The notes below the pieces were generated by a model. That model was not told the DNA's origin, ran no database searches, and was given only the letters and a program-made list of their open reading frames with translations. A program made the translations under genes and the position numbers. From NCBI RefSeq assembly GCF_020193575.1, contig NZ_JADYVD010000017.1, positions 62,001 through 126,000 on the forward strand: a stretch of DNA of 64,000 nt, read 5' to 3'. The DNA is from Ensifer sp. IC4062 (GTDB taxonomy: Bacteria; Pseudomonadota; Alphaproteobacteria; Rhizobiales; Rhizobiaceae). Positions 20,662-52,290 of the stretch are shown here, one piece after another; the first letter of the stretch is position 1; every line of letters starts with the position of its first letter.

Positions 20662-22106
20662 TCAATCAGCCTTGTGGCGTCGGGCCGGGAACAGAATTAC
20701 GTCGCGGATCGACGGCGCGTTTGTGAGCAGCATGATCAGGCGGTCGACGCCGATGCCGAGGCCGCCGGCCGGCGGCATGCCCTGATCGATCGCGTCGAGG
20801 AATTCGTCATCGAGCTGTTTTGCCTTTTCGCCGCGTGCATGTGCCTGTTCGAGCTGCTCGACCATGCGGGCGCGCTGCTCTTCCGGATCGTTGAGCTCCG
20901 AGAAGGCATTGCCGAGTTCCCAGGTGTTGCAATAGGTCTCGAAACGTTCAACGAGGCGCGGCTCGCTTGGCACTTCCTTGGCGAAGGGCGAGATGTCCTT
21001 CGGGAAATGCGTGACGTGGGCGGGCTGGATCAACGTCGGTTCCACCTTCTCTTCGAAGACGAACGCCAGGCATTCGCCCCAGGTCCAGTCCTTCTCGACC
21101 TCGAAGCCGGCGGCGGCTGCTGCGGCGCGCGCCTCCGCGTCGGTCTTCATCGCCAGGAAGTCGATTCCGGTGGCTTCCTTGACGGCTTCCGGCATGGGCA
21201 CTCGGCGGAACGGCCCCTTGAAGGAGATTTCCTTGTCCCCGTAGGTGAATTCCGTCTTGCCGTGGACCAGGAGCGCCAATTCGGCGAACAGCCGCTCGAC
21301 GAGGTCCATCACGTCCTCGTAGTCGGCATAGGCCCAGTAGCACTCCATCATCGTGAATTCCGGATTGTGCCGGGTCGAGACGCCTTCGTTGCGGAAGTTG
21401 CGGTTGATCTCGAAGACCTTGTCGGTCAGCCCTGAAACCAGCGTGCGCTTCAGGTAGAGTTCCGGCGCGATGCGCAGGAACATGTCGAGCTTCAGCGTGT
21501 TGTGATGCGTCTTGAAGGGCTCGGCGGTGGCGCCACCATAGACCGAGTGCAGCATCGGCGTCTCGACTTCCATGAAGCCGTCATTTTCCATGAAGCGGCG
21601 AATCCCGGATACGATCCGGCTGCGCTGCTGGAAGCGCAGCTTCGACTCCTCATTGGTCATGATGTCGAGATGGCGCTTGCGGTAGCGCAGCTCGATGTCG
21701 TGATCGTTTTTGCGTTGATGGTGAGCTCGCCGCGTTTGGTGCGGCGGACGATGCCGGTAATGCCGATGATGTCGCCGATGTCGATCAGCGGCAGCAACGT
21801 CCGCGCATCTTCCGGGGTCGTATCCTTGTGCGAGAAAATCTGGATCTTGCCCGAGGCATCATGAATATCCATGAACATGCCGGAGTTGCGCGAGGAAAAG
21901 ACGCGGCCGGCGACGGTCACGACGTCCTGCGTTTCGGTGTCCGGCTCCAGGCTCTCGTATTTCGCCGCGAGTTCCGCATTGGTCATCGTCCGGTGGAAAT
22001 GCGCCGGATAGACGTCGCCGATCTGCTCGCGCAGGAGCTTCAACTTCTGTGCACGCACTTCCGTAGCGTCGGAGGAAAGGCTGGCCGTTGCTGTCTTCTC
22101 GTTCAT
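20662..22106 (-). pseudogene. lysS: Lysyl-tRNA synthetase (class II), broken by an internal frameshifting deletion
   Basis: Two open frames make up one lysS. Bases 22106-21657 encode 135 residues of the N-terminal OB-fold anticodon-binding domain (to GELTINAKTI) and then 14 out-of-frame residues. Bases 21660-20662 encode 332 residues of the class II catalytic core (NEESKLRFQQR, FRNEGVSTRHNPEFTMMECY, GLGIGVDRLIMLL). The two reading frames differ. Between them the second frame still reads DIELRYRKRHLDI just upstream of its ATG. The linker that normally joins the domains, about 18 residues ending in a PMPEK..HGL-type segment, is absent near base 21700. This points to a deletion of about 52 bases. 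The downstream ATG overlaps the upstream TGA (ATGA), so coupled translation of two pieces is conceivable. An assembly error is also possible. Confidence 0.85.
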
Positions 22107-22116
22107 GGTCCTGTCC

Positions 22117-23574
22117 TTACTTTCCGCTGCCGGCCATCGAAGCGATCACCTGGGCCGCGACCTTCAGGCGCTGGCGCACGACCGCGCGGCCGAGCAGTTC
22201 CATCGAATCGAACAGCGGCAGCGAGCGCTGCGAGCCCGAGACGGCGACGAAGAGCGGCGCGACGATAGCTTTCAGCTTCTTGCCCATGCGCTCGGCGACC
22301 GCGCGCAGTTCCGCTTCGATCGATTCCTTGTTCCATTCGAGGACCTTTTCAAGATCCGGCTGAACGGTATTGAGGATCTCGAGCAGTTCTTCCGGCGAGG
22401 CCTTCACGCCGGCAAAAGCCGCCGGCTGCAGGCCGAGATCCGACTTGAACAGGAAGGCCGCGAGATCGGGCAGTTCGCCGAGCTTCGAGATGCGCGACTG
22501 GGCGAGTTTCAGGCCTTCCTTGAGGCGGTCGTTTTCCGCCGCCCAGGTGAAGACCCGTGCGGTAAAATCTTCCTCGGAAAGCTTCTCGCGGATCCAGCGC
22601 GCGTTCAGCCAGTCGAGTTTCTGGATGTCGAAGATCGCGCCAGCCTTCGAGAGGTTTTCCGGATCGAACTTTTCCGCCAGTTCGTCCATCGTCAGCAGTT
22701 CTTCGCCCTCGGCGATCTGGATGAAGAACAGGCCGAGGAAGTTCATCAGCGCTTCCGGCAGGTAGCCGAGCGCTGTGTAGTAGGAGATCGACGTCGGGTT
22801 CTTGCGCTTCGACAGCTTCGACTTGTCGGCATTGCGCATCAGCGACAAGTGCATGAATTTCGGCGGTTCGAGGCCGAGATACTGATAGATCAGGATGTGC
22901 TTCGGCACCGAAGCCAGCCATTCCTCGCCGCGCGCGACGTGGGTAATCTTCATCAGATGGTCGTCGACGACGTTCGCCATGTGATAGGTCGGCATGCCGT
23001 CCGCCTTGAGCAGAACCTGCATGTCGACCGCATCCCACGGAATCTCCACGTCACCATAGACGCCGTCGTGGAACTTGCATGAGCCTTCGGTCGGGATCTT
23101 CATGCGCACGACATGCGGCTCGCCGGCGGCTACGCGCGCGGTCACTTCCTCGGCGGAGAGGCTGAGGCAGAGCCCGTCATATTTCGGCGGCTTGCCGGCG
23201 GCGCGCTGCGCCTCGCGCATCTGCTCCAGCCGCTCGGGCGTGCAGAAGCAGCGGAAGCCGTGGCCATTCTCGACGATCTTCTCGACATAGGGCTTGTAGA
23301 TGTCCTTGCGGTCGCTCTGCCGGTAGGGACCGTAGGGACCGCCGATATCGGGGCCTTCGGACCACTTCAGCCCACACCATTTCAGCGCGTCGAGCACCTT
23401 CTGTTCGAACTCCGGCGTCGAGCGCGTCGCGTCGGTGTCCTCGATGCGCAGGATGAACTCGCCGCCGTGCTTCTTTGCGAAGAGATAGTTGAACAGCGCA
23501 ATATAGGCTGTGCCGACATGCGGTTCGCCGGTGGGAGAGGGTGCAATGCGCACCCGGACTGCTGAATCTGCCAT
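22117..23574 (-). CDS. gltX: Glutamyl-tRNA synthetase
   Basis: This class I synthetase charges tRNA-Glu (and in many alphaproteobacteria also tRNA-Gln) with glutamate. At 485 residues it has the usual length. The HIGH-type motif is PSPTGEPHVGTAY near residue 12, and the KMSKS-type motif is KLSKRKN near residue 255. IEDTDATRSTPEFEQ and WSEGPDIGGPYGPYRQS are conserved substrate-binding blocks, and the C-terminal third is the helical anticodon-binding domain. It is ten bases upstream of lysS on the same strand, so the two are probably one operon. Confidence 0.96.
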   Translation of the reverse strand: MADSAVRVRIAPSPTGEPHVGTAYIALFNYLFAKKHGGEFILRIEDTDATRSTPEFEQKVLDALKWCGLKWSEGPDIGGPYGPYRQSDRKDIYKPYVEKIVENGHGFRCFCTPERLEQMREAQRAAGKPPKYDGLCLSLSAEEVTARVAAGEPHVVRMKIPTEGSCKFHDGVYGDVEIPWDAVDMQVLLKADGMPTYHMANVVDDHLMKITHVARGEEWLASVPKHILIYQYLGLEPPKFMHLSLMRNADKSKLSKRKNPTSISYYTALGYLPEALMNFLGLFFIQIAEGEELLTMDELAEKFDPENLSKAGAIFDIQKLDWLNARWIREKLSEEDFTARVFTWAAENDRLKEGLKLAQSRISKLGELPDLAAFLFKSDLGLQPAAFAGVKASPEELLEILNTVQPDLEKVLEWNKESIEAELRAVAERMGKKLKAIVAPLFVAVSGSQRSLPLFDSMELLGRAVVRQRLKVAAQVIASMAGSGK

Positions 23575-23938
23575 GGTCTTTGCCCGTTTCGACGTGCTTA
23601 TGGCCCCCTGCCGGAGTGCATTTCCGGCTTATGGGCTCGCATTTTATGGGAAGGAAAGGCCCACAAGGGTGCCGCACCAGCGGTATCGGCGGGCAATTCC
23701 AGTCGGCTGGCGTGAGACCATAGAAAGCCCTGCGTGTCAACGGAAAGTGGATAGGGTCGTTTTGTTGGAACGTTCGCGGTCCTCAGGCGTTTATGCAGTC
23801 GAGGACGCGGACCGTGTCAACCGGACGCGACGGAAGTGGAGAATGCGGGAATTTTTCCGGTTTCTTCCCGCAACCAACGAAAACGGTAGTCGAACTCCCA
23901 ACCCGCCCGGTTCGTATCCTCACTTGTCTCCCGCAGTC
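23575..23938 (+). other. Gene-free region with a hairpin, possible small RNA
   Basis: The 524 bp between gltX and the TerC gene hold no supported protein. TGCGGGAA at 23844-23851 pairs exactly with TTCCCGCA at 23865-23872. A strong plus-strand terminator follows at 23939-23981, although no plus-strand gene is upstream. A sequence near 23910 (GGTTCGTATCC) resembles a tRNA T-arm, but no cloverleaf could be built around it. The gltX promoter must also lie here. Confidence 0.4.
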
Positions 23939-24098: not shown

Positions 24099-24854
24099 TT
24101 AGTGCAGCTTTTGGGCCTGCTGCCTTCTCAGCCGGGCATTGCGCGCCATCATGTTCAGCATCTCGACGAGTGCCGAGAAGGCCATGGCGGCGTAGACGTA
24201 GCCCTTCGGAACGTGGAAGCCCATGCCTTCGGCCATCAGCGTGGTGCCGATCATCAGCAGGAAGGCAAGCGCCAGCATCACGATCGTCGGGTTTCTTTCG
24301 ATGAAGTTGGCGAGCGGCGTCGCCGCCAACAGCATGACGGTAACGGCGACAACCACGGCGATGACCATGATCGGCAAATGCGGGGTCATGCCGACGGCGG
24401 TGATGATGCTGTCGACCGAGAAGACGAGGTCGAGCAGGAGGATTTGGCCGATCGCTGCAGCAAAGCTGTTGATCGCCGAAGTCGCGATGAAATCCTCGTC
24501 GTGATCGCTCGGATCGACATTGTGGTGGATCTCCTTGGTCGCCTTCCAGACGAGAAAGAGACCGCCGGCAAGCAGGATCATGTCCTTCCAAGAGAAGGGA
24601 TGGCCGAAGGCCTCGAAGACCGGCTCTGTCAATTGCACGATCCAGGCAATAGTGCCGAGCAGCGCCAGGCGCATGATCAGTGCGAGGCCGATGCCGATGC
24701 GGCGGGCGCTGACGCGGTTTTCGGGGGGAAGCTTATTCGTGAGAATGGAAATGAAGATCAAGTTGTCGATGCCGAGCACGACCTCCATGACAATGAGCGT
24801 GATCAGAGCGACCCAAGCCTCCGGGCTTTGGGCGAGCGTCAGGATTTCCTGCAT
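24099..24854 (-). CDS. TerC family integral membrane protein
   Basis: The 251-residue protein has seven to eight membrane segments. The family signature acidic motifs are [11 protein letters not shown] at about 24-34 and [13 protein letters not shown] near 145. TerC relatives include metal (notably manganese) exporters and tellurite-resistance proteins; which cation is moved here is not visible. The central loop [13 protein letters not shown] is rich in histidine and acidic residues, fitting metal binding. AGGAGAGGAAAG precedes the ATG. It is transcribed alone. Confidence 0.88.
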
Positions 24855-51606: not shown

Positions 51607-51949
51607 GGCTGACTTTCTTTCGTCTGTTCGCCGAGCTGATTCGGCCGCAATCTTCCGCGTGTCGAAGGATCATGAATAACGCCGCGCCGCTTGCGCTCGA
51701 TCCGATGCGCGCTTCTCAGCGCGCTCGTCTCGCGCTCTCGGGGTAAACCCCTTCGATTTCAAAGACTTGGCGCATTCTCCCCAGCAGGCTCGATTGTTCA
51801 GTGAATGTGAACACCGACAATGTCGGCGGCTTCGGAAAAAATTCAACAGCGGAACGCAAAAAACTCTTGATTACGACAAGGTTTTTTCTTACCTACCCCC
51901 TTGCCCAAAGTCGCACGTGCCTGTGGGTGTCCGCCGACCCTCGATTAGG
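51607..51949. other. Gene-free region between the LysR gene and the decarboxylase leader
   Basis: The stretch has GC-rich short repeats such as GCGCGCTTCTCAGCGCGC near 51710, and an A/T-rich piece near 51835-51900 that may hold promoters for the LysR gene and the leader RNA. No protein gene is supported. Confidence 0.35.
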
Positions 51950-52290
51950 TGAGGTTATCGGTAAGGTACCTGGAACTAACCCCTCCAGTCGCTATTCCGG
52001 CCAACCGGGAAATGCGAGGACATCTTGAAGCAACGACGGTGCGGGCCTTTCTGGTGTCTGCCGGCTTTCCAACAGCCGGGGTTACTGAAGAGGCACACCT
52101 TCATTGCCGGAAGTGCGGTTGGGATATTCCCTCCAATCCATGGCAGACAAAGTCGAATCTTAGCCTTTGCGGGCTTCGATTCATCGTTCGCGCATCCGGC
52201 GCATGCATGGTCCCGGGGTCTCCACCGGCTGGTTCCAGTGCAAGCGTACGTATGCCCTTTGTCCTCCACACTTGTGGAGTCTAATGGATC
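51950..52290 (+). ncRNA. Long leader RNA before the decarboxylase, speF-type candidate
   Basis: About 350 bases of GC-rich non-coding sequence precede the decarboxylase, with several inverted repeats. The last hairpin, CTCCACA/TGTGGAG at 52264-52279, ends just upstream of the GGGG ribosome site. The speF RNA motif is known upstream of ornithine decarboxylase genes in alphaproteobacteria, so position supports the call. I have not matched the consensus base by base, so treat the limits as approximate. Confidence 0.5.

Follow-up and report, generated by a model that had tools for sequence, protein, structure and literature searches.

A 52-base gap splits the single lysS gene of an Ensifer genome assembly into two reading frames

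In the window, the 64,000-base stretch of Ensifer sp. IC4062 DNA analysed here, the gene for class II lysyl-tRNA synthetase (LysRS), lysS, is written in two frames across a 52-base gap. Very probably, we conclude, the living strain makes an ordinary one-chain class II LysRS, and the gap reflects either an error in the submitted sequence or a dispensable lesion carried by some of the sequenced DNA. The existence of a working gene free of the gap is the part of this explanation that we infer. The gap would stem from a miscall, bad gap closure or a mixed culture, and an intact one-chain LysS would still serve the living strain. Most weight is placed on an error or a non-working lesion, since the loss of a single-copy synthetase gene that nothing else covers for would be hard to survive.

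Results

The lysS locus

The lysS gene lies at 22106..20662 on the minus strand of the window, as two overlapping ORFs in different frames. The features of the region are as follows.

21657..22106, minus strand: 5' part of lysS (ORF 1), 149 aa, N-terminal extension and OB-fold anticodon-binding domain
20662..21660, minus strand: 3' part of lysS (ORF 2), 332 aa, class II catalytic core, from native Met167 to the stop
21698..21701, minus strand: 52-base loss relative to kin, with 3 bases common to both ends
22117..23574, minus strand: intact gltX-like gene, 485 aa, directly upstream of lysS
24099-24854: TerC-family gene, neighbour of the Atu_At1 sRNA

ORF 1 consists of 136 native residues followed by 13 out-of-frame residues and a TGA (stop at 21657-21659), which is overlapped by the ATG of ORF 2. 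The gene at 22117..23574, which we take to be gltX from its protein, has a gltX-like equivalent at lysS in all 12 genus loci inspected. On the plus strand at 23805-23913, the Rhizobiales sRNA Atu_At1 (101.9 bits) lies between the gltX-like and TerC-family genes.

Reading the sequence alone had suggested that the anticodon-binding and catalytic parts are both preserved but lie in different frames, and the two ORFs bear this out. The native part of ORF 1 is 96-97% identical, and ORF 2 98% identical, to the LysS of a relative (G026). ORF 1 carries the OB-fold anticodon-binding domain over residues 63-136 (PF01336, 52.9 bits against a cut-off of 27). ORF 2 passes both LysS cut-offs (TIGR00499, 439.3 against 427.6 bits; NF001756, 483.1 against 468 bits) and falls below that for EpmA (TIGR00462, 239.3 against 286.9 bits). 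The OB fold and the core do not share one open frame; they are split over two.

Size and place of the gap

Aligned with its kin, the window lysS lacks exactly 52 bases within 21698-21701. Three bases are common to both ends of the gap, which leaves its exact position open by 3 bases. The sequence-only reading had proposed a 52-base internal deletion near base 21700, and the size it gave was exact. Its figure of about 18 missing residues came near; the loss amounts to 17 whole residues (137-153 of 498) and one base. Across 28 of the 29 genus loci (L032 left out), 14 of these 17 residues are invariant. ORF 2 additionally lacks residues 154-166, of which 9 of 13 are invariant in the same 28 sequences, RYRKR among them. 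Pfam places the end of the OB domain at residue 138 and the start of the class II core at 155 in an intact relative, so the gap nearly coincides with the inter-domain linker. For an accident, a position so close to the boundary of two Pfam domains is slightly unexpected.

The three bases shared by the ends are too few for a collapse between long direct repeats to explain the gap. An inverted repeat in one relative, with 12-base arms and 12 bases between them, straddles one gap end. Hairpin-driven loss was considered and given no weight: the DNA folds no better than shuffles (z of -0.26 and 0.06).

Ribosomal or transcriptional slippage could in principle join the two frames into a shortened chain of ~481 residues, and a five-A run just upstream of the gap would offer a place for it. 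However, the same run occurs in 3 of 9 intact kin compared, and the stretch from about codon 120 to the stop holds no canonical -1 heptamer. The slippage product would still lack the 17 conserved residues, and we regard this reading as very improbable.

The gap is confined to one genome

Alignment with lysS of related strains, a check proposed by the sequence-only reading, showed that the window alone carries the gap. In a DNA search, the match coordinates give a lysS span 52 bases longer in 32 of the 32 other genus genomes. None of these shares the loss, and a split at this site is therefore not kept in related species. LysS aligns as one open frame over residues 137-166 in all 29 genus loci (L007-L035). 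It is also open through this region in all 80 loci of named genomes, which are the 80 kept out of 463 relatives, the nearest kin being named Ensifer or Sinorhizobium. Two of the five rep loci of the genome were compared with known plasmids and reached best identities of about 92% and 89%. The exception among all these loci is that of the window (L006).

A second lysS in two frames was seen in the wider family. Apart from the window genome, 35 of the sampled family genomes have class II LysS, and one of them (G076) has a frame break in the gene (locus L158, G076:C1:700600-702900), with ORFs of 402 and 128 aa. The break lies at roughly residue 360-390, a place different from that in the window. 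The G076 genome is a single contig of 1,504,659 bases, in which no LysK match was obtained.

Quality of the contig

Two properties of the assembly count against an error. The contig of 138,257 bases contains no N, and the gap site lies at least 54 kb from either contig end. We also considered a generally error-prone assembly and rejected it. Among the well-matched genes on the contig (C84), 4 of 68, 3 of 91 and 6 of 93 looked frame-broken against the ORFs of three relatives; comparisons of relative with relative gave 1-4 of 81-113 genes. Just two genes, lysS and a decarboxylase gene, read as broken against all three relatives, the remaining cases doing so against one or two. The apparent break in the decarboxylase gene arises because its 5' part is a leader RNA, which leaves lysS as the sole clear case on the contig and counts against a generally bad assembly. 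An alignment to three relatives, covering 89,868 bases of the contig, yields 53 genome-specific indels, counted where size and place are the same against all three, so that larger differences in variable stretches can escape. Of these, 52 are 1-6 bases long; the remaining one, the 52-base gap, is an outlier.

The leader RNA is an observation in its own right. At 51903-52213 on the plus strand, an Rfam ar45 sRNA (172.8 bits) and a speF leader (124.7 bits) stand in tandem upstream of a gene ending at ~53434, which by recognition is presumably ornithine/lysine decarboxylase-like. The tandem stretch is nearly identical over much of its DNA in four Sinorhizobium genomes, and read as protein it mimics a broken gene.

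Selection on lysS

Where three close relatives agree, 26 of the genome-specific codon changes in lysS are synonymous and 1 is non-synonymous; counted likewise, the three relatives give 14:3, 14:6 and 20:4. These codon counts indicate that both halves of lysS are under purifying selection. The 26:1 ratio therefore suggests that lysS was selected until very recently or until now. Codons 154-166, read out of frame in ORF 1 and located ahead of the ORF 2 start, show no change in the window genome; two of the three relatives have none there either, which makes this stretch little informative. Apart from the gap, lysS shows no decay.

M. smegmatis cannot do without its canonical LysRS (PMC4721953). 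In S. meliloti, Tn-seq found 18 of 20 annotated aminoacyl-tRNA synthetases essential; the main text of that study does not name 'lysS' (PMC5929573).

Search for another LysRS

A PF00152 profile search of the assembly found three genes: lysS, a gene whose size and match pattern suggest aspS, and epmA, identified by TIGR00462 (377.6 bits against a cut-off of 286.9). Together with a DNA search, this gives one lysS and no second copy in the assembly. The epmA locus (L003, G000:C87, ~128267-129238) also holds a gene that we take by recognition to be KamA/EpmB-like on the same strand, and one presumed on the same grounds to be efp-like on the opposite strand. The surroundings of epmA thus form a compact EF-P modification locus.

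The search for class I LysK took in 13 genomes, six of them without class II LysS at 1e-60. In the assembly, PF01921 gave two short matches, which match ileS and valS best, and no lysK. A full-length PF01921 match at 1e-20 was absent from the window genome and three close relatives, and a match at this threshold was also absent from G076, G102 and G146, all of which have class II LysS. As a positive control, PF01921 scored 403-442 bits in all six tested family genomes without class II LysS at 1e-60. In the family sample of 131, class II LysS was found at 1e-60 in 36, including the window genome, and not in the other 95. These profile matches indicate that LysRS class changes within one family (36 of 131 class II; LysK in 6 of 6 tested others). 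The mixture agrees with the swaps between class I and class II LysRS reported in alphaproteobacteria (PMC1475646).

With LysRS classes swapped in this way, lysS could have been left a pseudogene after a takeover by class I LysK or by a further lysS. The sequence-only reading had raised such cover, and the search of the assembly speaks against it: neither gene is there, the weak PF01921 matches fit ileS and valS best, and lysS itself, apart from the gap, is free of the decay of a pseudogene. We consider a takeover extremely improbable.

The gap could also be real in the sequenced cells, with an intact lysS copy, on a duplication or on a stretch missing from the assembly, sustaining the strain. 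The clean junction with 3 common bases is a possible trace of a small real deletion, and assembly into a draft of 175 contigs could have collapsed a second copy that is nearly identical. However, the assembly holds neither a second lysS nor a good match to the lost stretch. The best match (37 bits, E 0.003, half the query) is on inspection an 18-base near match. We consider an intact extra copy unlikely.

Could the two ORFs form a split enzyme?

With no other LysRS in the assembly, the two ORFs themselves might provide the activity. Translation would then yield an OB-fold chain and, through re-initiation at the ATGA overlap, a separate catalytic chain, and the two would assemble into a working enzyme. 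The position of the loss favours this, residues 137-153 falling between the end of the OB domain and the start of the core in the intact relative. The structure model of ORF 1 appears to keep five OB strands (57-73, 78-82, 88-92, 113-122 and 128-137), and the best 50 PDB matches listed for it are LysRS (TM ~0.6, rmsd ~8). Its confidence is modest, however, with a mean pLDDT of 65.5 and low values in the foreign tail. The ORF 2 model, with a mean pLDDT of 41.5, is too low to weigh either way. Both kinds of part are also found as separate chains in the PDB. Entry 1krs is a 120-residue chain of E. coli LysS that aligns to residues 30-140, and 3g1z and 3a5z ('putative lysyl-tRNA synthetase') are stand-alone cores aligned from residue 177. 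The latter two are presumably EpmA. As a natural stand-alone core, however, EpmA lysylates EF-P (cited in PMC4721953).

Several features of the gene argue against a split enzyme. The catalytic chain would also lack residues 154-166, including the invariant RYRKR. Shine-Dalgarno pairing is absent at the inner ATG, with +0.3 kcal/mol compared with -5.7 kcal/mol for the start of lysS. The overlap of this ATG with the ORF 1 stop had been read as a hint of two chains; the hint loses its force on comparison, as the ATGA string is inherited and 12 of 28 intact kin carry it out of frame. The string is older than the gap, and the split is shared by no relative examined. We consider two separately made, assembling chains quite improbable. 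The same low probability applies to the underlying event, in which an essential class II LysRS would have been split naturally and very recently by a 52-base deletion that removed almost exactly the linker and coupled the ORFs via the ancestral ATGA.

Discussion

The sequence-only reading had left three options: a sequence error, two parts acting as separate chains, or cover by another LysRS. An error is the most strongly supported of these, by inference rather than demonstration. The two-chain option fares less well; it is weakly supported, by the place of the loss on the linker, while the overlap offered as a hint is inherited and the inner ATG lacks Shine-Dalgarno pairing. There is precedent for errors of this kind. 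In the finished genome of V. fischeri, 75 of 82 suspect loci held a sequence error, the majority of them frameshifts (PMC2330054). As in those records, a single gene in the window reads as two adjacent ORFs where its kin differ. Unlike the V. fischeri errors, which were confirmed by resequencing, the case made here for a fault or a dispensable lesion rests on sequence comparison.

Comparison with other known systems points to an ordinary LysS with an unusual interruption. Like bacterial class II LysS (TIGR00499/NF001756), both window halves are 96-98% identical to the G026 protein; unlike it, the window lysS as written is spread over two ORFs in different frames and lacks 17 linker residues. 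ORF 2 has about the same domain content as EpmA (GenX/PoxA), the stand-alone class II core that modifies EF-P. However, it scores under the TIGR00462 cut-off, and the genome has its own epmA elsewhere. Split synthetases are known in LeuRS of Aquifex and AlaRS of Nanoarchaeum, which are long-lived and shown experimentally. The window resembles them in spreading one synthetase over two ORFs, but its split, as read from the DNA, occurs in one assembly only.

No split LysRS was announced among the literature titles listed, a thin check covering titles only. To our knowledge no two-chain LysRS has been described, and a real split here would be the first. If true, it would be a two-chain LysRS caught soon after the splitting event. 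On the far more probable explanation, that the strain has an ordinary one-chain LysS and the gap is a fault or a dispensable lesion, the locus illustrates that a single faulty stretch is enough for an essential single-copy gene to seem lost, which misleads annotation.
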